From the NCBI GenBank assembly GCA_017503325.1, contig JAFVTI010000034.1:1-64000 (forward strand): a stretch of DNA of 64,000 nt, read 5' to 3'. The translations under genes and the position numbers were made by a program. Positions 5,696 through 26,300 of the stretch are shown here, piece after piece; the stretch's first letter is position 1, and every line of letters starts with the position of its first letter. The DNA is from Clostridia bacterium. Its GTDB lineage: Bacteria; Bacillota; Clostridia; Oscillospirales; CAG-272. The notes beneath the pieces were generated by a model. It saw only the letters and a list, made by a program, of their open reading frames with translations, made no database searches and had not been told where the DNA came from.

Positions 5696-5719
5696 AAAAA
5701 CCTCCTCTTTGTTGCGGGA

Positions 5720-7174: not shown

Positions 7175-7223
7175 TCACTCATCCTTTCTTCTCGGCTGAG
7201 AAAATGTGATTGATTGTACAATA

Positions 7224-7253
7224 ATTGTAGCATGTATGGCTTATCTTTGTCAA
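7224..7253 (-). promoter_or_regulatory. Promoter of the lipoprotein operon
   Basis: Minus strand: TTGACA (7248-7253), 18-bp spacer, TACAAT (7224-7229) preceded by TGC. It drives the two lipoprotein genes and is back to back with the GH36 promoter. Confidence 0.8.
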
Positions 7254-7312
7254 GCCTGCACAAACAACACGTGTATTTTAGTCTGTATTTTCTGTCTATT
7301 TGTCTTATTTTC

Positions 7313-7342
7313 TTGACAATGCATCCTGTTGTGCTTTATAAT
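7313..7342 (+). promoter_or_regulatory. Promoter of the alpha-galactosidase gene
   Basis: TTGACA (7313-7318), 18-bp spacer, TATAAT (7337-7342), about 40 bp before the ATG. Confidence 0.85.
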
Positions 7343-7383
7343 ACAATTGTCAAATTTTTACACAGGAGCGAAAGGAAAAGGAT

Positions 7384-9285
7384 ATGAACACTGTTCCTCG
7401 TTTTTCATTCAAGTACAGGGGAAAGCCCTTTGATCTGGCAGAAGCAAAGGTGAGTACGACTGCTTACGGCCGTCTTTACGAGCTTGCCGATGGGCTGCGC
7501 GTTGAGCTGCACGTCAAGGAATACCCCAAATACAACGCCGTCAGCTGGATGCTTTGGTTTGAAAACTGCGGTGAATATGACAGCGGACTGATCAGCGACG
7601 TGCTGGACTGCGATGCGACCTGGTGCTTTGCCGAGATTCCGGGGGTCACGCCGCCGCTTTCCCTGTATGATACAGACGGGTGTGCGGGCTATGAAGCATA
7701 CCTGCGCTCGGACAGCATTGCAGAGGAATGCAAGGTGCACGAAACCAAAATGACGCTTGGCAGGTCGCGCTCCTTCCATCCGCTGGGAGGCCGCTCTTCG
7801 AGCGGTCAGATGCCGTTTTTTGAGTTCTGCACCGTAAATCGCGGTCTGTTTGCCGCGATCGGCTGGTCGGGGCAATGGCGAGCCTCCTTTGCGCACACGC
7901 AGGGGGAAACGCTGGAGATCAAAACGGGTCTTGACTATACCGCCTTCAAGCTGCATCCGGGCGAGAGGATTCGCACGTCCTCTATCCTGCTTATGGAATA
8001 TCGCGGCAGTCGCGTGCAGGGAAGCAACCAATTCCGCCGTCTGATCAAGCACGAGCTTTGTCCCTTTGATGCTGCGCAGTTCCCGTTTGCCCTGGAAGGC
8101 ATGGGTCTTAGCACCGAGCGTCACCTTTATCATCTGAATAAATTCCGCGACCACGGCATCAAGGCCAATTATTACTGGATCGATGCGGGCTGGTACGGCA
8201 AGGGCGGCACGCCTGGAGCAGCCGACTGGTACAAGCAGGTGGGCAACTGGCAGGTGCGTCCCGACGAGCATCCCGACGGCCTTTTGGACGTGGTCAGAAC
8301 GGTGCACGAATCCGGCATGCAGTTCTTGCTCTGGATGGAGCCCGAGCGCGCCTATCCGGGCACCGATCTTGCACTCGAGCACCCCGATTGGCTGTATCCT
8401 CTGGATGGCTTTTATCTGCTTTTGCGCCTTGACAAGGACGAGGTGCGCGAGTATCTGTTCGACGTGATCTGCTCCTTTATCGATACCCTGCACATCAAGT
8501 GCTTCCGCCAGGACTTCAATATGGAGCCGCTGCAATCCTGGCGTATTACCGACGAGATGGATCGCGGTGGTATCAACGAGATCAAATACATCATGAATCT
8601 GTATCGCCTGTGGGACGATCTGCGCGCCAAGTATCCCGATCTCGTTATCGATAACTGCGCGTCCGGCGGCCGCCGCATCGACTTTGAGTCCTTGCAAAGA
8701 GCTATTCCGATCTGGCGAACCGATGCTTTCTGTGAGCCCGATCTTGACCCCGACGCGATCCAGACCCAGATGTTTGGGTATAATCGTCTGATCCCTTGCT
8801 CGGGCGGCGTGTGCAAGAGGATGGGTGACACCTATGCGACAAGAAGCTCCTATGCGCCCTGCTACGTGGGCAGCTGGTGGTGGACCGACCGTCCTGATCG
8901 CCCCGAGCCCGACGAGGAAAAGTGCGCCTGGATGAAGAAAATGTGTGACGAGTACCGTGCTCTGCAGCCTTACTTCTCCTGCGATTTCTATCCCTTGGAG
9001 AACGGCGGCTGGTCGTATGCGCACGGTGGCTGGGCAGCTTACCGATATGACAGACCCGAAGAGGGCGACGGCATCGTGATGGTGTTCCGCCGCGCAGGAT
9101 CCAATTGCGTGACCTCCTCTTACGTGCTGGAAGGGCTTGATCCCGAGGCTGTCTATACCGTGACCGATATTGATACCGAGCAAGCTTGGGAGATCGAGGG
9201 CAAGGTGCTTGTCCGTGAAGGTCTGAGCGTGACTGTTCCCAATCAATATCAGAGCAAGATCCTGATTTATCGGATCAAACATTAA
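7384..9285 (+). CDS. Alpha-galactosidase-like glycoside hydrolase (GH36 type)
   Basis: 633 residues with no signal peptide, so cytoplasmic. A beta-sandwich N-terminal domain (about 1-230) precedes a TIM barrel. Barrel motifs match GH36: YYWIDAGWYG, FLLWMEPERAYPG, CFRQDFNMEP with Asp377 as the expected nucleophile, DNCASGGRRID, and WRTDAFCEPD with Asp447 as the expected acid/base. Other clan GH-D specificities (alpha-N-acetylgalactosaminidase, for example) remain possible. RBS AGGAGCGAAAGG precedes the ATG. It is divergent from a surface lipoprotein operon that could deliver the substrate. Confidence 0.88.
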   Translation: MNTVPRFSFKYRGKPFDLAEAKVSTTAYGRLYELADGLRVELHVKEYPKYNAVSWMLWFENCGEYDSGLISDVLDCDATWCFAEIPGVTPPLSLYDTDGCAGYEAYLRSDSIAEECKVHETKMTLGRSRSFHPLGGRSSSGQMPFFEFCTVNRGLFAAIGWSGQWRASFAHTQGETLEIKTGLDYTAFKLHPGERIRTSSILLMEYRGSRVQGSNQFRRLIKHELCPFDAAQFPFALEGMGLSTERHLYHLNKFRDHGIKANYYWIDAGWYGKGGTPGAADWYKQVGNWQVRPDEHPDGLLDVVRTVHESGMQFLLWMEPERAYPGTDLALEHPDWLYPLDGFYLLLRLDKDEVREYLFDVICSFIDTLHIKCFRQDFNMEPLQSWRITDEMDRGGINEIKYIMNLYRLWDDLRAKYPDLVIDNCASGGRRIDFESLQRAIPIWRTDAFCEPDLDPDAIQTQMFGYNRLIPCSGGVCKRMGDTYATRSSYAPCYVGSWWWTDRPDRPEPDEEKCAWMKKMCDEYRALQPYFSCDFYPLENGGWSYAHGGWAAYRYDRPEEGDGIVMVFRRAGSNCVTSSYVLEGLDPEAVYTVTDIDTEQAWEIEGKVLVREGLSVTVPNQYQSKILIYRIKH

Positions 9286-11340: not shown

Positions 11341-13188
11341 TTGGCGAAAGAGAAAAAACAAAAGAAAAAGGACAAAAAGTCCAAGCAGGACAAGCTACCC
11401 ATGCGGCGCGTGGTGCAGAACAATCTGTATATGCTGAAGATCATACACAGCGTGGATCCTTGGCTGATCCCGTTGCGGCTTTTCATGACAGTCTTGGTCA
11501 GCGCAACCTACTTTTTGGGTTCTACGTATCTTTTGCAGTACGCGCTCAATGCTGTGGGTGAAGGGAAAGGATTTTTCGATATTTTATGGATGGCGATACT
11601 GTTTGTGGCTCTTGAGCTGTCAGCGGATCTAGTCAACAATGCTTTCTGGCAGCTGTACTATGAGAAGCGCAGATATGCGGTTGGGCAGCAGGTTAACTTA
11701 AAGATTTTTGCTCATGCTGACAAGGTGGAGCTTGCTTGCTATGAAAATCCCGAATTTTTTGACAAATTCGTCAAGGCACTGGGCGAGGCGGACGATCGCG
11801 CCATGAACGTGCTTGATAATGTGGCGGGTATTCTTTGGTGCGTAGTTGACCTTGTACTTTGTGTGAGCTTGGTGGCTTCGGTGCATCCCGTATTTTTGTT
11901 GTTTGCGCTGATTCCTCTTGTCACCATTCCGCTCCGTGCCAAATACCAAAAGGGCGTGCATGACAAAGATATGGAGATCCGCCGGATCGACCGCCGCAAG
12001 GGGTATCCGCATCGCGTCTTTTTTGTAGCGGATTACGCCAAAGAGCTGCGCCTGACCGCCATGCCAACCTATTTGCTCAAATACATGAAGGACGCCTCCG
12101 AGACCTGTCGCCGTATCCATGCGAAAAAGGGTGGGCTTTTGACCTTGCTTGAGTGCGGCTGCATTGTGTTTGGCAACGTGCTTCCCACCGTGTTGACTAC
12201 GGTATATGCCGTTTGGCGTACAGTGGTGCAGGGGCTGATGGGATTTGGCGACTGCTTTGTGGTACTCAATACCACCATGCGCATTTCGGGGGTGCTGCTT
12301 GATTCATTGGATGAATTTATGAATTTTCGCAATAATGCCCGTTATATTGACACCATGCGTGAATTTTTGGAGTATCAGCCGAAGATTACCGACGGTGATG
12401 CTCCCTTGCCCGAGGGTGGCGATATTACGCTGCATCACGTGACTTTTCAGTATGAAAGTGCGTCTGCACCGACCTTGCAGAACATTTCCATGACCTTTGG
12501 CGCAGGGCAGCGCATTGCCATTGTGGGTGCAAACGGTGCGGGGAAGTCCACCTTGGTCAAGCTGCTGTTGCGACTTTATGATGCCGAGGGCGAGATTACA
12601 TACGGTGGCGTACCGATCAAATCGTTTGACGTGCGCGAGTGGCGTGATATGTTTGCGGCAGTCATGCAGGATTTTCATTTGTTTGCGGTCAGTGCCGCCG
12701 AGAACGTGACGCTCTCTCGTCGTGCAGAAGGAGATGAGGAGAATATCACACGCGCCCTGCAAAGTTCGGGGATTTGGGATAAGCTGTACGAGAATGGCGG
12801 CCTTGACGCTTGCATGACAAGGGAATTCGATCCCGCGGGTGTGATGCTTTCGGGCGGTGAGGCGCAAAAGCTGGCCATCGCTCACGTGTACGCTAAGAAA
12901 AACCGCTTTGTCATATTGGACGAGCCTTCCTCGGCACTTGACCCTATTGCAGAGTACGAAATGTACCGCACCATGCTGGACGCCTGTGCTGACTGCGGTG
13001 TGATCTTTATCTCTCACCGCCTGTCAAGCGCGGTGCTTGCAGATAAAATCTACCTGATCGATGGCGGTAGAGTTGCCGAGAGCGGCACGCACGAGCAGCT
13101 CATGGCACATGACGGCATCTATGCGGATATGTTCCGCAAGCAAGCGGAGAATTACCAAGAAACCCGAGGCGGGGAGGTGAGTGTATGA
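11341..13188 (+). CDS. ABC transporter, fused permease/ATP-binding subunit 1
   Basis: 615 residues. A lysine-rich N-terminus precedes an exporter-type membrane domain (about 40-320). The nucleotide-binding domain has Walker A GANGAGKST (near 397), signature LSGGE (near 503), Walker B FVILDEPSSALD and switch histidine ISHRLSS. The start is TTG: an in-frame stop lies two codons upstream, and AAAGGAG sits 11 bp before it. It overlaps the next exporter gene by 4 bp, so the two probably form a heterodimer in the membrane. Cargo (drug, peptide or lipid) is unknown. Confidence 0.88.
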   Translation: MAKEKKQKKKDKKSKQDKLPMRRVVQNNLYMLKIIHSVDPWLIPLRLFMTVLVSATYFLGSTYLLQYALNAVGEGKGFFDILWMAILFVALELSADLVNNAFWQLYYEKRRYAVGQQVNLKIFAHADKVELACYENPEFFDKFVKALGEADDRAMNVLDNVAGILWCVVDLVLCVSLVASVHPVFLLFALIPLVTIPLRAKYQKGVHDKDMEIRRIDRRKGYPHRVFFVADYAKELRLTAMPTYLLKYMKDASETCRRIHAKKGGLLTLLECGCIVFGNVLPTVLTTVYAVWRTVVQGLMGFGDCFVVLNTTMRISGVLLDSLDEFMNFRNNARYIDTMREFLEYQPKITDGDAPLPEGGDITLHHVTFQYESASAPTLQNISMTFGAGQRIAIVGANGAGKSTLVKLLLRLYDAEGEITYGGVPIKSFDVREWRDMFAAVMQDFHLFAVSAAENVTLSRRAEGDEENITRALQSSGIWDKLYENGGLDACMTREFDPAGVMLSGGEAQKLAIAHVYAKKNRFVILDEPSSALDPIAEYEMYRTMLDACADCGVIFISHRLSSAVLADKIYLIDGGRVAESGTHEQLMAHDGIYADMFRKQAENYQETRGGEVSV

Positions 13189-15017
13189 CCAAGGCAAAAA
13201 AGCAAAAAAAGCCCCGTGAGAGAGGTGCTTTGAAGGCGGACTTGTGGATGCTGCGCCAAATCTGGCGTTATTCTCCTTGGTACGTCATCACCAACGTGCT
13301 TTACGGCATTATGATGGGTGCTTTGCCCGCTGCGGGGCTGCTTTATACGGAGCATTTGTATAACGGAATCGAAGATGGTACGGTGTTTGGCAAGCTTCTC
13401 GCGCTTGTGCTTGTGTATATGAGCTCTTTGCTTGTGGTGCGTGCGCTGCATACCGTATATCAGTTGGTCATGTTGCCGCGTTTTCGAGAGGTTATCAACC
13501 GCAAGCTTTACAGTGAAATCTTTGCGCACGCGTCAAAAACAGACCTTGCCAATTACGACGATCCCGAATTTTTCAACGAGTTTATTTTCTCCTTGCAAGG
13601 TGCTTGGCCGCATGTCATCCAGCTGATCGAGGGCACGGGGGGCTTGATCTCCAATGCCGTCACCATGCTGGTAGGTACGGGTGTGATCGCTGGTGTCAGC
13701 CCGATCGTTGCATGCATTCTGCTTGCCTCGGGTGTATTTCGCATTTTTATTTCCAAACGCACCAATGCGCTGAGCAAAAAGCAGGAGGAGGAGATCACTC
13801 CCGTGCGTCATCGTCGCGACTATATCAAGCGCGTGTATACCACTCCCGATTATGCCAAGGAGCTGCGCATCACGCGCATATCCGAGAACCTTCACGACGA
13901 TTACCGCGATACCACCGAAAAGCTGCAGGAAAACTCGGTAAGGTATGGAAAAAAGTATATGTTCTACGATTTTTTGTTCCTGCTGATTTTGGATTTCGCG
14001 AATTATGCCGTCATGCTGATCCTGCTTTGGCAAATGCTGACAGTACCGGAAAGTGGCGTGACGCTGGGCGGCTTTGCCGTGGGTGTCAACGCCATCTGGA
14101 GCTTGAGCTGGCGTTTACAGGAAATGGGCAGAGGACTGATGGCATACCATCAGCACGGCATTTTTGTCAAAAAGATCATTCACTTTTTCAGCATCAAGCC
14201 CAAGATCGTGGGCGGCACGGTGATGACCGAGCCTTTGCAGACGCTGCGTGTTAAGGACTTAAGCTTTGTGTATCCGAGCAAAGAGGGTGAGGTGACCGCC
14301 TTGCAGAGCGTGGATATGGAGATCAGGCGTGGTGAAAAGATCGCCATCGTCGGCTACAATGGCGCCGGAAAGACCACGCTGACCAAGCTGCTTATGCGGC
14401 TGTACGATCCCACCGAGGGCTGCATTACGTACAACGGGCGCGATTTGCGGGAGTATGATCTGGAGGATTTGCGTAGCAGAGTGGCCGCGGTGTTCCAGGA
14501 TTATCGCATTTTTGCGGCCACCATTGCAGAGAACGTGGTGGGCGGTGAGCTTGCAGAGGGAGAGAACGGGCAGGAGCAACGAAAGCGCGTGATCGATGCG
14601 CTGACCAAGAGTACCTTTGCCGGTAAGCTGGCTACGTTGGAAAAGGGCATTGACACCCAACTGACCCGCGAATTTGAGGATGACGGTATGATGCTTTCGG
14701 GCGGTGAAGCGCAAAAGGTTGCCATTGCCCGCGCGTTCTATCAGGATGCGGATTTGATCATTTTGGACGAGCCCTCGTCCGCGCTTGACCCAAATGCGGA
14801 ATATGAGCTCAACCGCGCGCTGTACGATTATGCCGAGGATAAGACGGTGGTCTTTATCTCGCACCGCCTATCCACCACGCGACATGCAGATAGAATTTAC
14901 ATGTTTGACGGCGGCAAGCTGATCGAATCGGGCAGCCACGAGCAGCTGATGGCGCAAAACGGCAAATACGCCTATATGTTCAATCTGCAGGCGGAGAATT
15001 ACCGTAGCGGGACTTAA
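13185..15017 (+). CDS. ABC transporter, fused permease/ATP-binding subunit 2
   Basis: 610 residues, same layout as the upstream partner: membrane domain first, then Walker A GYNGAGKTT (near 391), signature MLSGGEAQK (near 503), Walker B LIILDEPSSALD and ISHRLST. ATG lies inside the ATGA overlap with the first subunit. Two different half-transporters translated together is the standard arrangement of heterodimeric type IV exporters. No dedicated regulator or peptide gene is adjacent, so the cargo cannot be guessed. Confidence 0.9.
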   Translation: MTKAKKQKKPRERGALKADLWMLRQIWRYSPWYVITNVLYGIMMGALPAAGLLYTEHLYNGIEDGTVFGKLLALVLVYMSSLLVVRALHTVYQLVMLPRFREVINRKLYSEIFAHASKTDLANYDDPEFFNEFIFSLQGAWPHVIQLIEGTGGLISNAVTMLVGTGVIAGVSPIVACILLASGVFRIFISKRTNALSKKQEEEITPVRHRRDYIKRVYTTPDYAKELRITRISENLHDDYRDTTEKLQENSVRYGKKYMFYDFLFLLILDFANYAVMLILLWQMLTVPESGVTLGGFAVGVNAIWSLSWRLQEMGRGLMAYHQHGIFVKKIIHFFSIKPKIVGGTVMTEPLQTLRVKDLSFVYPSKEGEVTALQSVDMEIRRGEKIAIVGYNGAGKTTLTKLLMRLYDPTEGCITYNGRDLREYDLEDLRSRVAAVFQDYRIFAATIAENVVGGELAEGENGQEQRKRVIDALTKSTFAGKLATLEKGIDTQLTREFEDDGMMLSGGEAQKVAIARAFYQDADLIILDEPSSALDPNAEYELNRALYDYAEDKTVVFISHRLSTTRHADRIYMFDGGKLIESGSHEQLMAQNGKYAYMFNLQAENYRSGT

Positions 15018-15849: not shown

Positions 15850-15909
15850 ACGACGGATCTTTGTTGCAGATACAGCGGCAGGTGCATATATTCAATAAAA
15901 TTCAAAAGG

Positions 15910-15936
15910 AAAAGCCGAGGCATTGCCTCGGCTTTT
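15910..15936. terminator. Bidirectional terminator
   Basis: Arms AAAAGCCGAGGC and GCCTCGGCTTTT around a 3-nt loop, between convergent phosphatase and ABC ATPase genes. Confidence 0.85.
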
Positions 15937-15937
15937 C

Positions 15938-16852
15938 TTATGCCTGCTGTCCGAAGACGTACAGGTAATAGTCCTCCAGGGTGGGGGATTGCTCGCACGC
16001 GTCGGGGGCGGGGCGATTGTCGCAAAGCACGCGCAGGATGGCCATGCCGGGCTGATGCTCAGCAGCCGAGATGTTGGTCACGGCAAAGGCACTTTGCACG
16101 GCAGCGATCTCGCCCTCGGGCACGCACAGCGTCCACACCTTGCCCTCCAGCTGCTGCAAAAGCTCGTGGCCGGGGGCTTTTTGGATGATCTCGCCCTTGC
16201 GCAGCATGATGATCTCCTTGGCGATAAATTCCACGTCGGATACCACGTGCGTGGCGATGATCACGATCTTGCCCATGGCAATGCGCGAGATGTAATTGCG
16301 CACCGCAATGCGCTGCTTGGGGTCGAGCCCCGCGGTGGGCTCGTCCAAAATCAGGATCTTTGGGTCGCCCAGCACCGCCTGTGCAAGCGCAAGACGCTGC
16401 TTCATGCCGCCCGAGAGCGAGCCGATCTTGTGGCGCGCCACGTCGGAAAGCTCCACCGCCTGCAAAACGCCGTCGATCTGTGCCTTGATCAGCGCGTCTC
16501 TCTGCTTTTTGGGCAGATCCTTTCCCACGTCCTTGAGCGTGGCAACATATTGCAAAAATTCCTCCAAGGTAAAGCTTGGGTACATACCGGGGTACTGCGG
16601 CATAAAGCCCAGCATACCGCGGAATTCCTTGCCCATGGCGGCCACGTTTTCGCAGCGTCCATCCTCGTCGGTGAAGGTGATATTTCCCGCATCCGCGCGA
16701 AGATTGCCCGTGAGAATATTCATCAGCGTGGTCTTTCCCGATCCGTTGGGCCCCAGCAGGGCGTAGATGCCCGGGGTCAATTCGGCACAAAAGTTTTTCA
16801 AAGCCTGTGTTGAGCCATATGACTTTGATATATTATGGATTTCTAATTTCAT
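15938..16852 (-). CDS. ABC transporter ATP-binding protein of the lipoprotein/double-permease cluster
   Basis: 304 residues. Walker A LLGPNGSGKTTLMN (near residue 33), Q-loop FMPQYPG, signature LSGGMKQRLALA, Walker B ILILDEPTAGLDP and switch region ATHVVSD are all intact. The C-terminal 80 residues are an accessory tail. It follows a 743-residue permease by 12 bp with a GAAAGGAA site. It is the only ATPase in a seven-gene same-strand cluster with two permeases and four lipoproteins, so it most likely powers both permeases. The family resembles drug/bacteriocin-type ABC-2 exporters. Confidence 0.9.
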   Translation of the reverse strand: MKLEIHNISKSYGSTQALKNFCAELTPGIYALLGPNGSGKTTLMNILTGNLRADAGNITFTDEDGRCENVAAMGKEFRGMLGFMPQYPGMYPSFTLEEFLQYVATLKDVGKDLPKKQRDALIKAQIDGVLQAVELSDVARHKIGSLSGGMKQRLALAQAVLGDPKILILDEPTAGLDPKQRIAVRNYISRIAMGKIVIIATHVVSDVEFIAKEIIMLRKGEIIQKAPGHELLQQLEGKVWTLCVPEGEIAAVQSAFAVTNISAAEHQPGMAILRVLCDNRPAPDACEQSPTLEDYYLYVFGQQA

Positions 16853-16864
16853 ATTAAGTTCCTT

Positions 16865-19096
16865 TCATGTGGAGAATTTGCGGTAGGCTGCAATTGCCGC
16901 CACGGCACTCAGCAGCAGTACGGGGATGGCTGCATAGATTGCCGTATGTGTCAGCGAGATCGGCAGAGCGATTACGATACCGATTGCCATTGCGTACAAA
17001 CTGCGCTGCAACAGACAGGAAAGCGAGAAAATGCCAAGAGCTGTCAGCAGGGCAAAGGCGCATCTGCAGGTCAGCATAAGTGCATAATAACCACCAATCG
17101 TGCACGTGGCAGCGATGCTTTCAAATCCCGGCAGCGAGGCCAAGGGCGCATTGGCGGCGGGCAGCGCGTATTGAGTTGCCACGCTCAAAAGATCGATCAA
17201 CGAAAAGAGGATGCATAAGCCTACCGACACGCAAAGAACAGCTGCCAATTTGGCAAAATAGGTCTTGGATCTGCCCTTGGGGGTGGCGCGCAGAATGGAT
17301 GCAAAGCCGTCTGATGGGCCACTGCGGCGGTATTCCATAGAAAATGCGTGAGAGGCAAACAGGGCGATCGCCAATAAAAGCAGCCAATCAGCTCGGGAAT
17401 TGTGCAGCTTCAGCCAGCCGGTATCATAGACAAGCCAGCCTTGCTCCGAAAGCGAGAGCAGGCGGTCGCGCTTTTGCTCCACGATTGCCCAATGCGCGTC
17501 CTCGGATTTGGCGGATTCAAGCTGCTCCAGATATGCAGCGTATTGTGCTTGCGTGATCTTGCCTGCAATAAAGTTCGCTTGCATCTGATCGGACTTGGCA
17601 AGGGTTTGGTCGATCTCATTTCTCTTTTCTTGTATATACAAAAGCTTTTGCTCGGTCAAAGGCCCTTCCAGTTCGGTCATATGTTTATAGTAGACGCGAT
17701 CGGAAACGGTGCCCGGATTGCGATATTCGTATTGCGCATATGCGATTTTGCCCGCACCAAGCAAAAGGATCGCGAAAACCATGCCCGAGACGATCAGCAT
17801 CTTGTATAGCTCTATTCCGAAAAGACTCTTTGGTACAAAGCGTGGCAGATGGCGCTTGCTTGCCAACTCCCTGAGCTTGACAGGCAGCTTGCAGGGCAGT
17901 TGCTTTTTTGCCGAGCCGCCTTGCCTGCGGACAAATACGAGCCAAAACAGCATAAGAACCGGAGCAGTCAGTATGACGCACAGGCAGAATGCAAGCGGCA
18001 CGTAATGGCAAGGCATGCCCAGCAGATTGCAGGTGCGCAGCCTTGCAAACAAAGGAGAAGCATCGGTCAGAGCGATCAGATTGAGGCTTTTCCACGGAGA
18101 ATCGGGGTTGATATAGGAAATGCTGTTCAGCGCATATTGCAAGCCAAGAAGCAATAGCCCCGCGCCAAAGGCGTATGCGCGATTGCGAATCAGCGCACAG
18201 ATCAAGGCCGACATGGCCGCAAACAGGCAAAATGCCGCAGAGCGTAAAAGCAATGAAAGCACCAAATACTGCCTGATCGACAGCGCATAGGGGCAAAGCG
18301 CAAAGCCGGGAACCGATTGGATGGCATTGGATGCCGAGGAATAGCCGCATGCAAGCCCGACTGCCGCAAATGACGTAAGCGAAAAGAGCAGCACAAGACA
18401 CACCGTCACCGGCATAAGTGTGACGATCTTTGCGCCACTTACCCCTTGCTTGCCGCGCTTGGTGCAAGCAATGACGGGCAGCATGCCGACCGTGCGGTCG
18501 CAGGAGGCAGCGGAAATGGATACCAGAAGGATCAGCGCAAACAGCAGCGCGTTTTGTGCAGAGTGGTTAAAATAGATCTCCCATCCGCGCGTGGGCTCAA
18601 TGCCGATGCGCACGGTGCTTTTGAGCTCTGTGTAGGTGCGGATGACCGTTTGCTGCAGCTTGTAGTTATAGCTGCTCTCCGGGATGCCCATAGCGCGAAA
18701 TTCCGCTAAGTTTTTCTCGGCAGATTCAACCACACCATCCATGCGCTCAGGATGCCCCTGCGCTTGCTCGATCGCAGCATAGAGAGTCGTGAACATTTGC
18801 AGATCGGTGTATCCGTCGGGGGCATATTTTTGCTCTGCCTGTTGCGGACGCTGCTCTTGCATCGGGTCGTGCATCTCGCCCCGCACAAGCTCGTTGTAAT
18901 ACGCGTCCATTTCTGCCCGATTTTCAAAGTAAAGGTCAAAAAACGCCTCCAATTCTCTATGCGGAACGGCCTCCTTTTGACTGCTCTCGGCAGCAAAAAA
19001 GGACAGCGCAAAGCAGATCGACAAAAGCACAAGCAAGCAAACGCGCAAAAAGCGCATCCCAAGCAGCTTTTTCAGTTCAAATACGATCAGCTTCAT
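16865..19096 (-). CDS. Tandem-duplicated ABC-2 type permease 1
   Basis: 743 residues with about a dozen hydrophobic segments, roughly twice the length of a normal ABC-2 permease. Both halves repeat the same order: an N-terminal helix after ELKK (1-30) or IELYK (near 430), a long polar extracytoplasmic stretch, then GW-x3-F/H (171 and 560) and a helix leading into a conserved loop ending in GR/GK-x(6-7)-K. I start it at ATG 19096, since GAAAGGAC precedes it; the longer frame begins with TTG inside that site. It lies 18 bp after a lipoprotein gene and 12 bp before the ATPase. Internal duplication suggests one chain can form the whole pore. Confidence 0.82.
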   Translation of the reverse strand: MKLIVFELKKLLGMRFLRVCLLVLLSICFALSFFAAESSQKEAVPHRELEAFFDLYFENRAEMDAYYNELVRGEMHDPMQEQRPQQAEQKYAPDGYTDLQMFTTLYAAIEQAQGHPERMDGVVESAEKNLAEFRAMGIPESSYNYKLQQTVIRTYTELKSTVRIGIEPTRGWEIYFNHSAQNALLFALILLVSISAASCDRTVGMLPVIACTKRGKQGVSGAKIVTLMPVTVCLVLLFSLTSFAAVGLACGYSSASNAIQSVPGFALCPYALSIRQYLVLSLLLRSAAFCLFAAMSALICALIRNRAYAFGAGLLLLGLQYALNSISYINPDSPWKSLNLIALTDASPLFARLRTCNLLGMPCHYVPLAFCLCVILTAPVLMLFWLVFVRRQGGSAKKQLPCKLPVKLRELASKRHLPRFVPKSLFGIELYKMLIVSGMVFAILLLGAGKIAYAQYEYRNPGTVSDRVYYKHMTELEGPLTEQKLLYIQEKRNEIDQTLAKSDQMQANFIAGKITQAQYAAYLEQLESAKSEDAHWAIVEQKRDRLLSLSEQGWLVYDTGWLKLHNSRADWLLLLAIALFASHAFSMEYRRSGPSDGFASILRATPKGRSKTYFAKLAAVLCVSVGLCILFSLIDLLSVATQYALPAANAPLASLPGFESIAATCTIGGYYALMLTCRCAFALLTALGIFSLSCLLQRSLYAMAIGIVIALPISLTHTAIYAAIPVLLLSAVAAIAAYRKFST

Positions 19097-19114
19097 GGCG
19101 TGTCCTTTCAATGT

Positions 19115-20293
19115 TCAGTATTGAGAAAGTGTCTTATCCCAGGTGTTGAAATAAACGCAATAATTGCCGGTTTCTACATCGATGACAAGCTTGCCGCCCG
19201 CGTCGGTTTGCCAAAAAGGGCAATGAAATAACTCGTGATTGACAAATGCACCAAAGTCGTAAACCAGATATCCGCCGATGATTTCAGGGTTGCCTATAAC
19301 AAGATCATCATTGGAGAACAGAATCTCCTCTTGGTCGGTGGCGGTGTTGTAGCGGTACACCGTGCCGCCCGTACGGTTATAGATTTTGCCGTTCAATCCG
19401 CATTCGCCCATCAGCCGCGGCTCTTCTGCGGACTGCGTGTAGCAAATATAGTCGCCCCATGTCAGCCCCGACTTGGGCACGGATTTGTCTGTGTTCTTGC
19501 GGTGCGTGGCAAGATCGTAGGTGCATGGCACAAGCTCGCCCTCGCGCCATTCCGAAAAGGTAAGGTAGCCGCTGTCCTGCGAGGTGACGTGATCAAACCT
19601 TACGTAGTAGAGAATGCAATCCTCCAAGATGCTTTGCTTGTCTTGCATGCTTGCATCCAAGGAGTACACCTCTGTTGCAGGCGAGCCGCTTGCAGTGCAG
19701 TAATATCTGCCATCCACGTATGCTGCGGGGATATCGTATGCGGGATCAAGCTGCTCATATGCGCCCGTTTCCAAATCGACTCTGAAAAAGACCTTTGCAT
19801 AAGCGTCGCGGTACCAGTAATAGCCAAGGGAGAGCGAGGTGGATGCGCCGCCGTTGCTCTCTGTATCCGTTCCCGAAGAAACGGTGTAAAGCATCTGCGC
19901 CTTTTTCTTTGCAAAATCGTATTTTACAAGGTCGCGGTCGGTCACGTACCAAATCACGTGCTTTGCATCGTCAACCAAAAACTGAAATCCCACGTCTGCA
20001 AATAAGCAATCGGATTTTTCATCGTGTGAGCATAGGGGATCGTCACACAGGTACGTCACCTCACCCGTGGTCACGTTGAAGCGAGCCAGAGCGCCGTTTA
20101 ACAAGAAGTATTGATACAGAGCAGCGGGCTCAAATTGCGTGTTTTTGATCGGATTTTCGTAGGAGTTGGGGTTGCTTGGGTCACCCGTGGCGGCCTGCTC
20201 ACCTGTCAAATCCTCGGGTAAGGGAAGTGCTTGATTGCAGGAGGCCAACACAAGCAGCAGGCATATGCATAGCAATCGTTGCGCTCGTTTCAT
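19115..20293 (-). CDS. Lipoprotein of the double-permease cluster (divergent member)
   Basis: 392 residues. MKRAQRLLCICLLLVLASC gives a lipobox with Cys19. The mature part is rich in short beta strands with repeated tyrosine, aspartate and glycine turns, suggestive of a beta-propeller-like fold. Residues 83-96 read C-x4-C-x-H-x5-C, the motif shared with three lipoproteins upstream. I begin at ATG 20293 after a GGGGGG site; the longer frame starts upstream of the -35. It shares a transcript with the permease and the ATPase. Likely an extracytoplasmic sensor or substrate-binding component; the function is unknown. Confidence 0.75.
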   Translation of the reverse strand: MKRAQRLLCICLLLVLASCNQALPLPEDLTGEQAATGDPSNPNSYENPIKNTQFEPAALYQYFLLNGALARFNVTTGEVTYLCDDPLCSHDEKSDCLFADVGFQFLVDDAKHVIWYVTDRDLVKYDFAKKKAQMLYTVSSGTDTESNGGASTSLSLGYYWYRDAYAKVFFRVDLETGAYEQLDPAYDIPAAYVDGRYYCTASGSPATEVYSLDASMQDKQSILEDCILYYVRFDHVTSQDSGYLTFSEWREGELVPCTYDLATHRKNTDKSVPKSGLTWGDYICYTQSAEEPRLMGECGLNGKIYNRTGGTVYRYNTATDQEEILFSNDDLVIGNPEIIGGYLVYDFGAFVNHELFHCPFWQTDAGGKLVIDVETGNYCVYFNTWDKTLSQY

Positions 20294-20330
20294 TTGGTTC
20301 CCCCCTTTTTTACGTTTCGTATCTACATTT

Positions 20331-20359
20331 ATTGTAACATGATGGGGGAGTATTGTCAA
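20331..20359 (-). promoter_or_regulatory. Internal promoter of the cluster
   Basis: Minus strand TTGACA (20354-20359), 17-bp spacer, TACAAT (20331-20336). It allows lipoprotein, permease 1 and ATPase to be transcribed apart from the upstream genes. Confidence 0.8.
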
Positions 20360-20396
20360 GTCAGCCGATCGAATACGTCATAAACGGATATCTGAT

Positions 20397-22499
20397 TCAA
20401 GCCACCTCCTTTGTTTGCTTTGCCCCGATGATGCCAAGCGTCGTGCTCAGCACCAAAAAGACGATCAGAACCGCGGCGGCACGCATCGGGCCGTCATTCA
20501 TGAAAAACAGCAGGGCTTGGTTGCCGTCCAGGTATGCGGTCAATCTGGCGTACTGCAGCAGATCAACGCCCATGCCATGGATTAGTTTGGGAATTTGCAC
20601 CGCGACGGTCAGTATGATCAGCGACAGATACGATACCTTGACAAGGCGTGTCAACTGACAAGCGAGCACACACACAAGCAAGCATGCGCTATATCTGACA
20701 AGCATGATCAGCGCGGCATATTGCCAAAGCGTCAGGTGCGGCGCGGCGTTTTTGTAGATCTGCAGGCTGACCAGCGTTGCGTTCGCGTCCTCAAAGCGGT
20801 AGGCAAGCAGGATGGGCAGCAGCTGCATGAATGTAAAGATCACAAAAAACGCGGTGGTCAGCAGCATGCATAAGAGCAGCTTGGCGCGGCTTGTCTCCCG
20901 CCTGCCGCGCGGCGTGGTGGACAGGATAGGGGAGAACTTGGAGGAATACTCGATCGCCCCCAAAAAGGTACAGGTCAGCAGGATGCACAAGAACAAGAGC
21001 AGGTGGTCGCCCGACTCAAACAGCGTCATCCAGCCCGTGTCGTAAAGCAAGGTCAAGCCGTCAAGGCCGCGCTCGGATTGGTACGCGCAGGCCTCGGACA
21101 CCCTGACCAAGGGCATTTCATGCAGGCAGGCGTAGTAGTATTCGTTCTCGATCTGTATCATACTGACCCCTTCGGGCAGCGTGTCGGACGTGGCGTTGCG
21201 GTATTTGAAGTAGTTTCTGTACCCCTGTGAGACGCGTTCGCCCTCTGCGTTAAGGTAGTCCCAACGCTGCGCGTCGTCCATGGGCGCGAGCGTTTTTACG
21301 TAATCGTAATAGATCTGATCGGATCTGCTTGTGTACTCCTTGTACTGCCAAAATGCGCCTGCGGCAGAAATGAGCAGCAAAAGCACAAGTGTGAGCACCA
21401 CAAAGCGGCTCTTTCGCAGCTTTTTGCATTCCCAGGCAAGCAGCGTGCGTGCGCCAATCGCGGTGCGCGCGTCGCGCGTGCGGCGGCCTGCAAGATTGAA
21501 GCGGATATTGGCAAATTTCAAATGCAAAAGCACGATGCCGCCGAGGCAGAGCAAAGAGAGCGCTATGTAGAGGCCTAAGATGGCAGGCACGACCGAGATC
21601 GGCTTGCCAAAGATGCGCACGCATTGGTATCTGGAAAGGAAGGTGGCAGCGTCCGTGGCTGCTATCAGATTGCAATGGTCAAGGATGACGTCTGTGTTGA
21701 GATACGTGTGCCCGTCTAGCACAAGACTGACGGCATAAACCAAGAGCGAGAGCACTAAGGCCACAAGGCGGTTGCCGAGCGTATAGGTCAAAAGTCCCAC
21801 CAGTGCGCACACGAACACCGTAACAGAGGTGCGGATGGCAAAGAGCAGGAGAATGGCTTGCCAGGTGCGCAGGGCATAGGGCGCGCCGAGAAAGACGCCG
21901 AAGCTTTGCACGTATTCGCCAAGCCCCGCAAAGGAAAAGGTTGCTCCATCCGGCAGCGTGGCAAGCAGCATGCCGATCAGCGAGATGCCGAAAAAGAGTG
22001 CGCTGAGTGTGAATTCCGAGAGCAGCATGGCAAGAATTTTGCTTGTGACATATCGGAGCCGCCCGCCGGCCGATGCGTAAATGATGGGTTGCATGCCTGT
22101 CTTGCGATCCACGCTGAACAGCTGCACCGAGAGGAATACGGCGCAGATCAGAAGCAGCGGATTTGCCGCATGAAACGACAGGTACGTATCCCAGCCGCTG
22201 ACCGGCTGCTCGGCAATTTCAAGCCCCTTGAGATCGGTATAAATGTTGATGACGTCCTCAAAGTACAAGGTGGCATAGCTGTCCTCGGAGTTGTAAAGGC
22301 TCTGTTGATACTGCCGCTTGGCGTTCGAGATCACGGCCGAGATCTTTTTCTCGTATTGCCGCGTCTGCTGCGACTCGGGGGCTTTCGACGCCTGATCGTA
22401 GGCAAGCGCGCCCGTCACAAGCAGCAATACCAGCACGATTGCCACCGTCAGCTTGGAAAGCCCGATTTTTCTGATTTCAAAAAATAACTGTTTCATCAT
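20397..22499 (-). CDS. Tandem-duplicated ABC-2 type permease 2
   Basis: 700 residues, again two permease halves fused. Half one begins LFFEIRKIGLSK and has GWDTYLSF at 102; half two begins WECKKLRKSRF near 355 and has GWMTLFESGD at 489. Both GW blocks lead into a helix and a G-x(12-13)-GR loop (TGMQPIIYASAGGR; ILSTTPRGRR). Its start overlaps the stop of the upstream lipoprotein as ATGA, or may be the second Met. It is a paralogue of permease 1 in the same cluster, and no second ATPase gene exists, so both probably use the 15938-16852 product. Confidence 0.82.
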   Translation of the reverse strand: MMKQLFFEIRKIGLSKLTVAIVLVLLLVTGALAYDQASKAPESQQTRQYEKKISAVISNAKRQYQQSLYNSEDSYATLYFEDVINIYTDLKGLEIAEQPVSGWDTYLSFHAANPLLLICAVFLSVQLFSVDRKTGMQPIIYASAGGRLRYVTSKILAMLLSEFTLSALFFGISLIGMLLATLPDGATFSFAGLGEYVQSFGVFLGAPYALRTWQAILLLFAIRTSVTVFVCALVGLLTYTLGNRLVALVLSLLVYAVSLVLDGHTYLNTDVILDHCNLIAATDAATFLSRYQCVRIFGKPISVVPAILGLYIALSLLCLGGIVLLHLKFANIRFNLAGRRTRDARTAIGARTLLAWECKKLRKSRFVVLTLVLLLLISAAGAFWQYKEYTSRSDQIYYDYVKTLAPMDDAQRWDYLNAEGERVSQGYRNYFKYRNATSDTLPEGVSMIQIENEYYYACLHEMPLVRVSEACAYQSERGLDGLTLLYDTGWMTLFESGDHLLLFLCILLTCTFLGAIEYSSKFSPILSTTPRGRRETSRAKLLLCMLLTTAFFVIFTFMQLLPILLAYRFEDANATLVSLQIYKNAAPHLTLWQYAALIMLVRYSACLLVCVLACQLTRLVKVSYLSLIILTVAVQIPKLIHGMGVDLLQYARLTAYLDGNQALLFFMNDGPMRAAAVLIVFLVLSTTLGIIGAKQTKEVA

Positions 22500-23638
22500 T
22501 CGTAAGGATTATATTTGATCAATCTGTATTCTCCCGTCACTACGTTGACAATCAGCATGTCGGTAGAAGTGAGGTTGTGATTTCCATGTTTGTCTTGATA
22601 ATAATTTTCCGAGATGAAACCCACCCAATCGCCGCATATAAACTCGTTATGTCTGTTGGGTGACGGACCTCCGTATACAAAACCGTCTACGTGGCACAAT
22701 CGCTTGCTATCCGTTCCGTCCAGGTCCACAACGTAAATGTTGCCGCCGTAAAGATCCTTGTGATCATCTCCGTCCACCGTGATCCAGATCTGGGGGTTCT
22801 CCACGAACTTGACGTAAAGCAGCTTATCGCCGTAAACGTAGAAATCCGCCACGTCCTCTGCGATCAGCACCTCTTCGCCCGTAGAAAGATCCTTGCAGTA
22901 CATCTTGTCATACGTCCACTTGCCAAGCGTCCAGCGCAGCTTGTATTTTCCCCATTCGCGGCAATAGTTTTGATCATATACACGCCAATCGCCCCCGTCC
23001 AGATCGGTGGAGTAGTATTTGAGATCATCCACCCAAACGATTCTGCCAACCTCGATCAGCTCCATTCTGGCAAACGGATGACCGCAGTCGATGACCTCAA
23101 GCTCGCTGCTTCGTGTGTTATAGCGATAGTACGTGACATTAAAATCTCCTTCCACTTGGGTAGGAAGAGATTCCATAAAATAGAGATAATAATTGTAAGA
23201 GAAAATGCGACTCAAAAGCCCGTTGGAGGTGTAAATTTCCTCTACCTTCATGCTGTCAGCATCATAAGAGCGCAGGTGGTGTTGTCCATCTGAAGATGAA
23301 GAATCCAGATTGTAATACAGAACGTTTCCAATCGAGGTCATCAAGCGCGAGCTAATGGCAAACGGACAGGAGGATCCGAACCTTTCGTGCGGACAAAACG
23401 GATCCTGACAAACGGGCGATGCGGTACCCGTGGGGATGTGGTATTTGAGTAGCAGACCGTTAAAGGCCTGGAACATGTAATCTCCCGGAACCGTTCCGGT
23501 CTCAACTTCTCCGTATTCCAATTCACTTGACGTAATCCTTTCGTGCGTCGGCCGCTCGGGTCGCTGCTGCTTTTGCCCGCAGGAGCCAAGCAGGATGCAA
23601 AGCAGGGCAAGGATGGTGAGTAATAATTTTCGTTTCAT
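22496..23638 (-). CDS. Lipoprotein of the double-permease cluster, paralogue A
   Basis: 380 residues from ATG 23638, with Cys20 as lipid site (CILLGSC). A GAGGGGAGCT site precedes two adjacent ATGs; a third, at 23656, sits in an ATGA overlap with the upstream gene and may aid coupling. Shared features with its paralogues: QRPER after the signal, GTVPGDY, KYHIPTGTA, C77-x4-C82-x-H84-x6-C91, and the end VVTGEYRLIKYNPYE. The mature region is beta-strand-rich. Its stop overlaps the start of permease 2. Role unknown; a surface receptor or sensor for the transporter is the simplest reading. Confidence 0.75.
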   Translation of the reverse strand: MKRKLLLTILALLCILLGSCGQKQQRPERPTHERITSSELEYGEVETGTVPGDYMFQAFNGLLLKYHIPTGTASPVCQDPFCPHERFGSSCPFAISSRLMTSIGNVLYYNLDSSSSDGQHHLRSYDADSMKVEEIYTSNGLLSRIFSYNYYLYFMESLPTQVEGDFNVTYYRYNTRSSELEVIDCGHPFARMELIEVGRIVWVDDLKYYSTDLDGGDWRVYDQNYCREWGKYKLRWTLGKWTYDKMYCKDLSTGEEVLIAEDVADFYVYGDKLLYVKFVENPQIWITVDGDDHKDLYGGNIYVVDLDGTDSKRLCHVDGFVYGGPSPNRHNEFICGDWVGFISENYYQDKHGNHNLTSTDMLIVNVVTGEYRLIKYNPYE

Positions 23639-23652
23639 CATAGCTCCCCTCG

Positions 23653-24786
23653 TCATTCATAAGAATTAAACTTGATCAATTTATATTCATCGGTTACAAC
23701 GTTGACCATCAGCATGTCGGTCAGGGCAAGGGAAGCCCCGCTCCAGTCATTCTCATCCGGGTAGTAATTTTGAGAGATGATTCCAACCCAATCGCCGCAG
23801 GATATGGGGTTCATGTATCCATAGCAGAATTCTTCCACGTGGCATAACAGATGTGCGTCCGAGCCGTCCGAATTCATGACGTAAACGTTTCCGCCCCACT
23901 CGTCCTTGATCTGCTTGCCGGCGTCCGAGGTGACGTATCTCGGTGTGTCCGTACGTTTCCAATACAAAACCTTGTCACCGTAAAAATAGAACCAGTCAAT
24001 ATCTTGTGCAATCACAATTTCTTGATTTGTGGAACGGTCTCTTCTGGATAAACGAACGTACTCACCATTGGCGTCAAGTGCCCACGTGTAAACGTAATTG
24101 CCCCATTCTCGCTGCAATACGGGGGTATAGCCACGCTTGTCTTCTCCGTTTAAGTCTGTGGAAAAATATTTATCTCCTCTTTCCCAAACGATTCTGCCCG
24201 CCTCAATCGCGTGAATCGTTGCGTACGGATCATCGCAATCAATGACATCAGTCGTACCTGTCTGCGTATCTAACCTGTAAATGACGGTGCCGATGATATT
24301 ATGGTCTTCCACCTCCAGCTCAGAAAAATAGAGATAGTAGTTATAGGAAAACAGACGGCTCAGAACACCGTCTGAGATCAGGATCTCCTCGATTTTCATG
24401 CTCTCACCGTCATAAGAGCGCAAACGCCACTGACCGTCTATTTCCTTGGCGTAATACAAGATATTCCCAATTGCAGCATACCGATGACCCGGCACTCTGA
24501 ACGGACAATGATAATCATGGGAGCAAAACGGATCCTGACAGACCCACGTTGCCGTGCCCGACGGAATATGGTATTTGATCAGGACATAGTTTGTCGTTGA
24601 TCCGTATACGTAATCTCCCGGAACTGTTCCGGTTTCGATTTTTCCATAATTCAATTTACTTTCGGTGATCCTTTCAGGCAAGGTTTGGAGCGGCTTTCGT
24701 TCCGGCCTTTGCTCTTGCTTTTGCCCGCAGGAGCAGAGAAGGATCATCAATGCCGCAAGGGCGATAAGTAAAAATTTGCATTTCAT
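23653..24786 (-). CDS. Lipoprotein of the double-permease cluster, paralogue B
   Basis: 377 residues, lipobox LLCSC with Cys20. It keeps GTVPGDY, KYHIPSGTA and the ending VVTDEYKLIKFNSYE. The Cys/His motif is C83-x4-C88-x-H90-x3-C94, three residues shorter than in paralogues A and C. AAAGGATG precedes the ATG. Its stop overlaps the upstream alternative start of paralogue A by 4 bp, so the genes are co-translated. Upstream lies a 386-bp repeat-rich gap separating it from paralogue C. Function not recognised. Confidence 0.75.
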   Translation of the reverse strand: MKCKFLLIALAALMILLCSCGQKQEQRPERKPLQTLPERITESKLNYGKIETGTVPGDYVYGSTTNYVLIKYHIPSGTATWVCQDPFCSHDYHCPFRVPGHRYAAIGNILYYAKEIDGQWRLRSYDGESMKIEEILISDGVLSRLFSYNYYLYFSELEVEDHNIIGTVIYRLDTQTGTTDVIDCDDPYATIHAIEAGRIVWERGDKYFSTDLNGEDKRGYTPVLQREWGNYVYTWALDANGEYVRLSRRDRSTNQEIVIAQDIDWFYFYGDKVLYWKRTDTPRYVTSDAGKQIKDEWGGNVYVMNSDGSDAHLLCHVEEFCYGYMNPISCGDWVGIISQNYYPDENDWSGASLALTDMLMVNVVTDEYKLIKFNSYE

Positions 24787-25172
24787 AAGGACATCCTTTC
24801 GTGACTTTTATGATTCAAAAGGTTTGTTTGGATAAGCAATCAATGTGGACGCGCGCCCGAAAGGCTACCCCCGAGGGGTAGCTCCCGACGCAGTCGGGTG
24901 AGGGGGATTGGCGGGCAAAACGGTGCGGTTGACCGCTTGGGTGAAACGCTCTTAAACCAAAGTATTCGCATTCCCCTTCAGTCGCTGCGTAACAGCGTCT
25001 CGCTGCGGCTCGGTCACTCTCGCATATCTGACATGCGCACCGGCATGTCAGATATGCGATCGCGCCGCTTTGCTACCCCCGGGGGATGCCTCTATAGCGC
25101 GTTTCCGTCTTTATGCGCATCCACTCTGATCAACGTCGTATTTCCTTCGCGGAATGTAAGGGCATTCTTTCA
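24787..25172. repeat. Repeat-rich intergenic region between two lipoprotein genes
   Basis: This 386-bp gap has no convincing gene. It holds a GGCTACCCC/GGGGTAGC hairpin near 24865, a CCCGAC/GTCGGG hairpin near 24887, and at 25020-25059 a perfect hairpin with 17-bp arms and a 6-nt loop. The GC-rich text resembles the dispersed palindromic elements common in gut Clostridia genomes. I saw no clear promoter for the downstream lipoprotein. Confidence 0.6.
25020..25059. repeat. Perfect 17-bp inverted repeat
   Basis: Arms 25020-25036 and 25043-25059 pair exactly (CGCATATCTGACATGC and its complement) with loop GCACCG. No T-run follows on either strand, so it is not a standard terminator. Confidence 0.75.
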
Positions 25173-26300
25173 TCATTCACACGGATTGTATTTGATATAT
25201 CTGTACTCACCCGTGACTACGTTGACGATCAGCATATCTGACTCCCAAACGCCGCCGTCATAGACGCACCACGTCAGAATCCCTACCCAATCGCCGCTGC
25301 ACAGCTGATTGTTTTGGTGCGACGACATGCCCATGATCGGGCAATCGTCTACGTGGCATAAAAGGTGCTTATCCGAGCCGTCCAGATTCATCACGTACAC
25401 GTTACCGCCAAGCGTATCGTAAGAGGTGCCGTACTCGTCCGAATACCAGATCTCAGGATTGTCCACCTGCTTGAAATACAGGATCTTATCGCCGTAAAAG
25501 TAGAACCAATCCAGCTTTTCATCCGAAACCACGATCTCCTCTCCGGTCGAGTGGTCCTTACGGTATAATGCTTGAATACATTTTTCCTCTGCAGACCAAT
25601 CCCACCTGAACGTATATTTGCCGTAAGGTCGGCTGAAATTCATGACGTATATGTCCTCGTCATTGCCGTCAAGATCGGTGGAAAAATATTCGTTTCCCCA
25701 TCTCCAGACGATCCTGTCTGCCTCAATGTCATAGATCCTTGCAGAGGCATGGCCGCAATCAATGGTTTCAAGTGCGCCGCTTTGCGTGTCCAGTCTGTAA
25801 TACGTATAGTCAAACTCCTCTTCAACGCCCGTGGGCAGCTTTTCCCAAAAATACAGATAATAATCATAGGCAAAGGGGCTGCCGATCATGCCGTTCGAGG
25901 TGCGTATCTCCTCCACCTTCATATTGTCTCCGTTATAGGAGCGCAGGTGGACCTGACCGTCAATTTCCACTCTGTAATACAGCGTGTTTCCGATAGCCGA
26001 CATTCCGGTCCAATCGACGGCGAATTGGCAAGATGATTGATACGGATCGTGCGTGCAGAACGGATCCTGACAAACGGTCGAGACCGTACCCGTGGGGATG
26101 TGATATTTGAGCAGCACATCGTTTACCGAATGGAATATGTACTCTCCCGGGACTGTGCCTGTTCCAATCTCTCCGTCCTCCATCGCACTTGACGTGATTT
26201 TTTCATGCGTCGGCCGCTCGGGGCGCTGCACCTTTTGCTCGCAGGAGCCAAGCAGGATGCAGAGCAGGGCAAGGGTGATGGGGAATAATTTTTGTCTCAT
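25173..26300 (-). CDS. Lipoprotein of the double-permease cluster, paralogue C
   Basis: 375 residues, from ATG 26300 after a perfect GAAAGGAGG site; the signal peptide ends CILLGSC with Cys20. It aligns end to end with paralogue A: QRPERPTHE, GTVPGEY, KYHIPTGTV, C77-x4-C82-x-H84-x6-C91, VVTGEYRYIKYNPCE. The mature protein has many aromatic beta-strand repeats (YYRLDTQSGALE, for example), suggesting a propeller-like fold. It is first in the cluster and follows the typA terminator; I see no strong promoter before it. Likely a recent duplication of paralogue A. Function unknown. Confidence 0.75.
   Translation of the reverse strand: MRQKLFPITLALLCILLGSCEQKVQRPERPTHEKITSSAMEDGEIGTGTVPGEYIFHSVNDVLLKYHIPTGTVSTVCQDPFCTHDPYQSSCQFAVDWTGMSAIGNTLYYRVEIDGQVHLRSYNGDNMKVEEIRTSNGMIGSPFAYDYYLYFWEKLPTGVEEEFDYTYYRLDTQSGALETIDCGHASARIYDIEADRIVWRWGNEYFSTDLDGNDEDIYVMNFSRPYGKYTFRWDWSAEEKCIQALYRKDHSTGEEIVVSDEKLDWFYFYGDKILYFKQVDNPEIWYSDEYGTSYDTLGGNVYVMNLDGSDKHLLCHVDDCPIMGMSSHQNNQLCSGDWVGILTWCVYDGGVWESDMLIVNVVTGEYRYIKYNPCE

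Follow-up and report, generated by a model that had tools for sequence, protein, structure and literature searches.

Seven adjacent minus-strand genes of a Clostridia bacterium (GenBank assembly GCA_017503325.1, contig JAFVTI010000034.1) are best explained overall, at a rough probability of 0.5, as encoding an ATP-binding cassette (ABC) exporter of type V (ABC-2) with dedicated extracellular propeller subunits. The subunit architecture taken by itself, that is, a type V pump with a complete membrane pair per permease and propellers as outside partners, we regard as likely. The genes lie at 15938-26300 of the analyzed stretch (positions 1 to 64,000 of the contig, hereafter the window) and are transcribed in the order LipA, LipB, LipC, PermA, LipD, PermB, ATPase. 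The one ABC ATPase, two permeases and four related lipoproteins named in an earlier annotation of this DNA (the original prediction) were all present. The features of the region were as follows:

25173-26300, minus strand: LipA, lipoprotein of 375 residues, motif CQDPFCTHDPYQSSC; weak DUF5050 match below the cut-off
24787-25172, minus strand: noncoding gap between LipA and LipB, 386 bp, with an inverted repeat inside
23653-24786, minus strand: LipB, lipoprotein of 377 residues, motif CQDPFCSHDYHC
22496-23638, minus strand: LipC, lipoprotein of 380 residues, motif CQDPFCPHERFGSSC; 4-bp overlap with PermA
20397-22499, minus strand: PermA, double-length ABC-2/type V permease of 700 residues
20331-20359, minus strand: promoter-like site, TTGACA-17-TACAAT, the second hexamer being preceded by TG; 11 of 12 positions match, a consensus match only
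19115-20293, minus strand: LipD, lipoprotein, likely ATG start at 20293, motif CDDPLCSHDEKSDC
16865-19096, minus strand: PermB, double-length permease of 743 residues
15938-16852, minus strand: ABC ATPase of 304 residues, catalytic motifs present
15909-15937, minus strand: terminator-like hairpin of 13 pairs, directly 3' of the ATPase gene

The internal duplication of PermA and PermB is real, as the original prediction had proposed. Profiles of permease half 1 and half 2, each based on 15 homologues, aligned to each other with 99.9% probability over 328 columns, whereas the reversed control gave 29% over 42 columns. A simple scan counted 12 hydrophobic segments in PermA and 11 in PermB, and the predicted model of PermB comprised two sets of six membrane-length helices together with helical ectodomains, i.e., the six helices per half of the type V membrane fold. 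This predicted fold resembled the type V permeases NosY, Pdr5 and ABCA4; LolCDE and MacB were not among the fold matches listed, which excludes nothing, and the best match of the permeases to solved structures by sequence had an E-value of 0.3. The ATPase was intact, with Walker A, signature, Walker B and switch His present, and scored 103.5 bits against ABC_tran, in keeping with the cognate ATPase of a type V transporter; against the lantibiotic ATPase model it scored 135.6 bits, below the cut-off of 309.75. Homologues with split halves exist, which bears out the idea of fused half-permeases: in loci L122 to L127, the halves are separate genes, each with a lipoprotein, and an ATPase gene lies beside or between them in L123 to L127, with no close ATPase beside them in L122. 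Because the halves are separate genes in these loci, one double permease can be equated with a full membrane pair, of which the window would hold two per ATPase gene.

The four lipoproteins have the lipoboxes LGSC, LCSC, LGSC and LASC and share the motif CxDP(L/F)CxH-x(n)-C, whose last residue is the third Cys; identity to LipA was 51% for LipB, 57% for LipC and 25% for LipD. LipC was predicted to be an all-beta propeller (predicted local distance difference test score, pLDDT, of 87.1), and the predicted lipoprotein fold was close to that of 3s25. By sequence, the best match of the lipoproteins to solved structures had an E-value of 0.048; LipA reached 20.3 bits against DUF5050 (PF16472), under the gathering cut-off of 27 bits, and LipB, LipC and LipD gave no match to this family up to E 1. 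Across 186 lipoproteins, a few of whose genes were counted twice via overlapping loci (L040 and L025), the most conserved positions besides the lipobox Cys and the start Met were C91, C82, D79, C77 and H84. C77, C82, H84 and the following Cys (C91, for which any Cys after the His and before residue 100 was counted) were kept in 171 of the 186, the exceptions being nine that lacked the His alone, three that lacked C77 alone and three that lacked all four and kept the Asp. All four residues were also kept in 89 of 90 database homologues, for which the motif was not a selection criterion, but the queries that found them carried it. Because three Cys cannot all form disulphides within the site, a putative metal site is the simplest inference for CxDPxCxH-C, and a zinc-type knuckle has roughly even odds.

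The lipoprotein-permease-ATPase set recurs in other genomes, as the original prediction had envisaged, and chance is therefore implausible as its source. Permease relatives were found in 92 of 394 genomes and in 46 of the 169 sampled genera of the order, with at most two candidates scored per genome, so that copies were undercounted. The loci came from Clostridia genomes, mostly of gut and rumen, plus further relatives, and usually comprised a permease, an ATPase and one to nine lipoproteins, with sometimes no lipoprotein seen. Among 18 well-flanked permeases (at least 5 kb on either side; two from the genome under study, and L073, L075, L085 and L088 close relatives), 17 had a family lipoprotein within 6 kb on the same strand and 12 had a close ATPase within 8 kb. 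For all 63 permeases, many with short flanks, a lipoprotein was counted for 46, an ATPase for 48 and an extracytoplasmic function (ECF) sigma gene for 13. These neighbour counts omit L039 to L041, which duplicate L030, L025 and L036, and permeases of fewer than 500 residues. The homologues listed were named only 'hypothetical protein'.

Genome-wide counts give a fairer test of pairing, since the lipoprotein hidden Markov model (HMM) was seeded via the motif in loci fetched mostly through the permease and is thus biased to neighbours. The genome under study contained seven permeases and four close ATPases, and all 10 of its lipoprotein genes lay within 10 kb of a permease. In a set of 15 genomes (12 with permeases and three without), 37 of 55 lipoprotein genes were found within this distance, and the other 18 were in G108 (16) and G020 (2); the three genomes without permeases gave no lipoprotein match with profile A4. 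In a further 23 permease-bearing genomes, the corresponding figure was 19 of 24.

Six of the 18 well-flanked permeases had an ECF sigma gene within 3 kb, in several cases overlapping by 4 bp, and the occurrence of such genes beside a third of these relatives suggests envelope-stress induction. The same genes might indicate a sensor, in which the propeller lipoproteins and the transporter detect an envelope signal and release the ECF sigma factor, transport being secondary; in L106, the genes ahead of the ATPase and permease are those for an ECF factor and a DUF4367 membrane protein, and in L093 the same two precede four lipoproteins. We consider this improbable: no ECF gene was seen near the other 12 well-flanked permeases or beside the window cluster, and an ECF gene in the operon is equally expected if it merely regulates a pump.

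That the lipoproteins belong with the permease, as originally predicted, is further supported by gene fusions and by correlated distances. An in-frame tail followed the second half-permease in 11 genomes from four families (G129, G360, G206, G354, G325, G159, G071, G236, G395, G390 and G386), reaching about 180 to 645 residues past the junction. A lipobox-like Cys stood at the permease/tail junction in 10 of the 13 proteins examined; two of the exceptions had no regular-expression match, and the match in L116 was at a false place. The tail alignment (11 rows, of which hhalign used 9, some cut roughly) matched the lipoprotein alignment with 98.9% probability over 236 columns, compared with 0.6% for the permease half. 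DUF5050 was detected above the cut-off in the tail of L118 (39.8 bits, 546-657) and below it in those of L108, L113 and L115, with no match in those of L110 and L120. As a set, the tails appear propeller-like. Fusion in relatives is accepted evidence of joint function and would point to it here, short of proof of binding in this cluster. Furthermore, lipoprotein and permease distances correlated over 30 adjacent pairs (r 0.72; none of 2000 shuffles reached this value) and continued to do so after pairs with permeases at least 50% identical had been dropped (26 pairs, r 0.53, none of 2000 shuffles). This Mantel correlation used only lipoproteins directly upstream, and L044 and L096, which are one locus, were both included before the 50% identity filter.

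Several results weigh against an exporter with propeller subunits. Taken singly, only six of the 13 tails matched the lipoprotein HMM with an E-value of 0.003 or lower, and the tails had been selected for long frames; the Mantel correlation is equally expected from co-inheritance of whole modules. For the permease, Foldseek alone gave no match under E 0.001, and neither PermA nor PermB matched a lantibiotic permease in NCBIfam up to E 1, a library that presumably contains such models. No bacteriocin genes were identified among the window genes annotated, which make up part of the window. Six of the 18 well-flanked permeases had no close ATPase within 8 kb, and a search with PermA found nothing in any of the three further genomes searched in this genus, of which two are 71-76% complete. 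In the first set, two permease-bearing genomes out of 12 (G129 and G031) gave no lipoprotein with profile A4 at E 1e-6, as did 11 out of 23 in the second. Either pairing is thus frequent without being strict, or profile A4 misses members of the family; it is indeed narrow, since in some of these genomes, such as G023 (L036), a motif lipoprotein does adjoin the permease. Lastly, the original prediction had named parts found mostly apart as its counter-evidence, and this is partly the case: in G108, 16 of 21 lipoprotein genes lay away from any permease.

The 21 lipoproteins of G108, set against its three permeases, also speak for the lipoproteins being cargo, extracted or translocated by a LolCDE-like sorter, with the tandem arrays as diverse surface proteins of one exporter. 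Up to nine lipoproteins within 6 kb of one permease (L073) and the other lipobox or surface proteins (LRR_5, DUF6273) of sister clusters would fit the same idea. It nevertheless seems decidedly unlikely, as the in-frame propeller-like tail on the permease fits a subunit better and the fold matches are of type V; the lipoprotein and permease distances correlate as well, though co-inheritance gives the same.

The fused tails also lack the CxDPxCxH motif, a further point on the adverse side, and one that bears on a NosDFYL-like alternative too. Here, the ABC part would do mechanical work for extracellular metal handling and the Cys/His lipoproteins would carry or receive a metal ion, with no export of peptide or lipid. 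Tails without the motif suggest that the transporter part may manage without it, no metalloenzyme was recognized beside the cluster among the genes annotated, and similarity to the NosY fold is common to ABCG, Pdr5 and ABCA proteins, so that we rate this alternative as rather unlikely. NosZ, NosD and NosL were not recognized among the neighbouring genes scanned with Pfam, no genome-wide search having been made.

Returning to the exporter, each permease would by itself supply the full pair of membrane domains, and two copies of the common ATPase would drive it. The propellers would dock on the helical ectodomain between the first and second transmembrane helices of each permease half and hold an amphipathic ligand, probably peptide or lipid-like, at the outer face, whereupon ATP-driven movement might expel the ligand or clear the membrane of it, comparable to the action of LanFEG and LanI on lantibiotics. 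At the CxDPxCxH-C site, a small metal knuckle, probably of zinc, would hold the first-blade loop for docking, and several lipoproteins per permease would act as interchangeable heads of differing specificity. That a peptide or lipid-like ligand is exported or cleared is put forward tentatively, at somewhat less than even odds; the role is probably envelope protection. It is more doubtful that the cluster represents a new class of ABC machine, i.e., a type V transporter with exchangeable metal-knuckled propeller lipoprotein heads in tandem arrays, sometimes built into the permease, in which one ATPase and one or two permeases serve many extracellular ligands.

With regard to its organization, the promoter-like site between PermA and LipD suggests that the cluster consists of two joined modules, LipA-LipB-LipC-PermA and LipD-PermB-ATPase, with one ATPase in common. 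The single seven-part machine of the original prediction was set aside, as this site and the separate tree places of PermA and PermB fit two modules better. In the permease tree, PermB grouped with database homologues, L069 and a permease on another contig of its own genome; the PermA branch was long and its placement unsure, and 23 of 67 inner branches were drawn open. A recent duplication giving rise to PermA and PermB was likewise discarded, the two being 25% identical and PermB grouping elsewhere in the tree. Because TTG 20359, with which the longer LipD frame begins, sits in the first hexamer of the promoter-like site, LipD most likely starts at ATG 20293. The numbers of promoter-like (11 found versus 9.2 expected) and terminator-like sites (20 versus 12.5) of any quality in the region are near chance, and only the quality and position of the 20331-20359 site and of the hairpin after the ATPase gene stand out. 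Gene spacing, described earlier as mostly overlapping or within 20 bp, was indeed mostly tight, except for the 386-bp LipA-LipB gap and a spacer of about 100 bp that separates PermA from LipD. No convincing match to a hidden lipoprotein remnant was found in the LipA-LipB gap; 130 bp of it recur on contig C40 at 82% identity, perhaps as a small repeat element.

The nearest flanks of the cluster encode TypA, a phosphoesterase and two ABC ATPase proteins. At 11341-15017 of the window, two neighbouring proteins of 615 and 610 residues with a C-terminal ABC ATPase domain are encoded with a 4-bp overlap, convergent to the cluster. Three long minus-strand frames at 2681-9282 (1004, 484 and 625 residues) had no Pfam match at E 1e-4 and are overlapped by plus-strand frames of similar length, so that the coding strand is unsure. 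Elsewhere in the same genome (G000), contig C54 carries a sister supercluster at 1069-39349 (L024, L025) with four double permeases and two close ATPases. Its lipoprotein genes number six at E 1e-6, besides further lipobox proteins, and it also has a Sigma70_r2 gene, a BspA-type leucine-rich repeat protein and, in between, a MoxR/DUF58/BatA-VWA module. On contig C33, another lipoprotein-permease-ATPase set has directly upstream of it three DUF6273 proteins in tandem (2-2957, L027), which carry List_Bact_rpt (Flg_new) domains. In G108, locus L093 (contig C57, 4971-13341) encodes four propeller lipoproteins in tandem, along with an ECF sigma factor, a DUF4367 membrane protein and two small proteins that look secreted; no permease lies within its 18-kb stretch. 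In L106 (1763-2714) and L093 (6562-7575), such small secreted-looking proteins, of 143-175 residues and without a confident Pfam match, separate the ECF/DUF4367 pair from the ABC or lipoprotein genes.

Should the lipoproteins be docking heads, they would tie a large and so far unannotated propeller family to an ATP-driven pump. They would then be a type V exporter's counterpart of importer binding proteins and would offer a testable system for ligand handling at the cell surface of Gram-positive anaerobes. The conserved CxDPxCxH-C site provides a simple handle for metal-binding and mutational work. In the open-licence literature, a propeller family as ABC partner, in arrays or fused to the permease, was not found, and DUF5050/DUF4367 and combined queries returned no title on such a system.

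Compared with known systems, precedents exist for both features that the original prediction had considered foreign to ABC-2 exporters, namely long permeases and accompanying lipoproteins. According to the available excerpt of PMC11466899, both membrane domains are in one chain in AlbCD, EcsAB and YthPQ of B. subtilis, and SkfE2F and YthP2Q are given as one membrane chain plus two ATPases; that excerpt gives no propeller lipoprotein partner for AlbCD, EcsAB, YthPQ or SkfEF. NosDFYL is similar in its type V permease fold and in the extra NosD and NosL parts within one complex (PDB titles). It differs in its NosY chains, each of which has 246-275 residues and makes up one half only. The folds of NosD and NosL also differ from the propellers of the cluster. 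The mycobacterial efflux pump 8k1p, with a permease chain of 509 residues, was the second Foldseek match, at an E-value of only 0.016, and is not known to have a lipoprotein partner. 3s25 (EUBREC_1955) is a DUF5050-like propeller, whereas the cluster lipoproteins are below the DUF5050 cut-off or unmatched and have the Cys/His site. As far as the accessible part of PMC5786555 describes them, LanFEG/LanI and CprABC consist of an ABC-2 transporter adjoined by a lipoprotein, LanI binding the lantibiotic outside the cell. The cluster shares with them one ATPase, an ABC-2 pair of two six-helix halves and lipoprotein genes beside the ABC genes (PMC5786555, same part). In contrast to LanFEG/LanI, its permeases have fused halves with a predicted helical ectodomain in each half, and its lipoproteins, which are encoded in arrays, have a Cys/His site and a predicted propeller fold.
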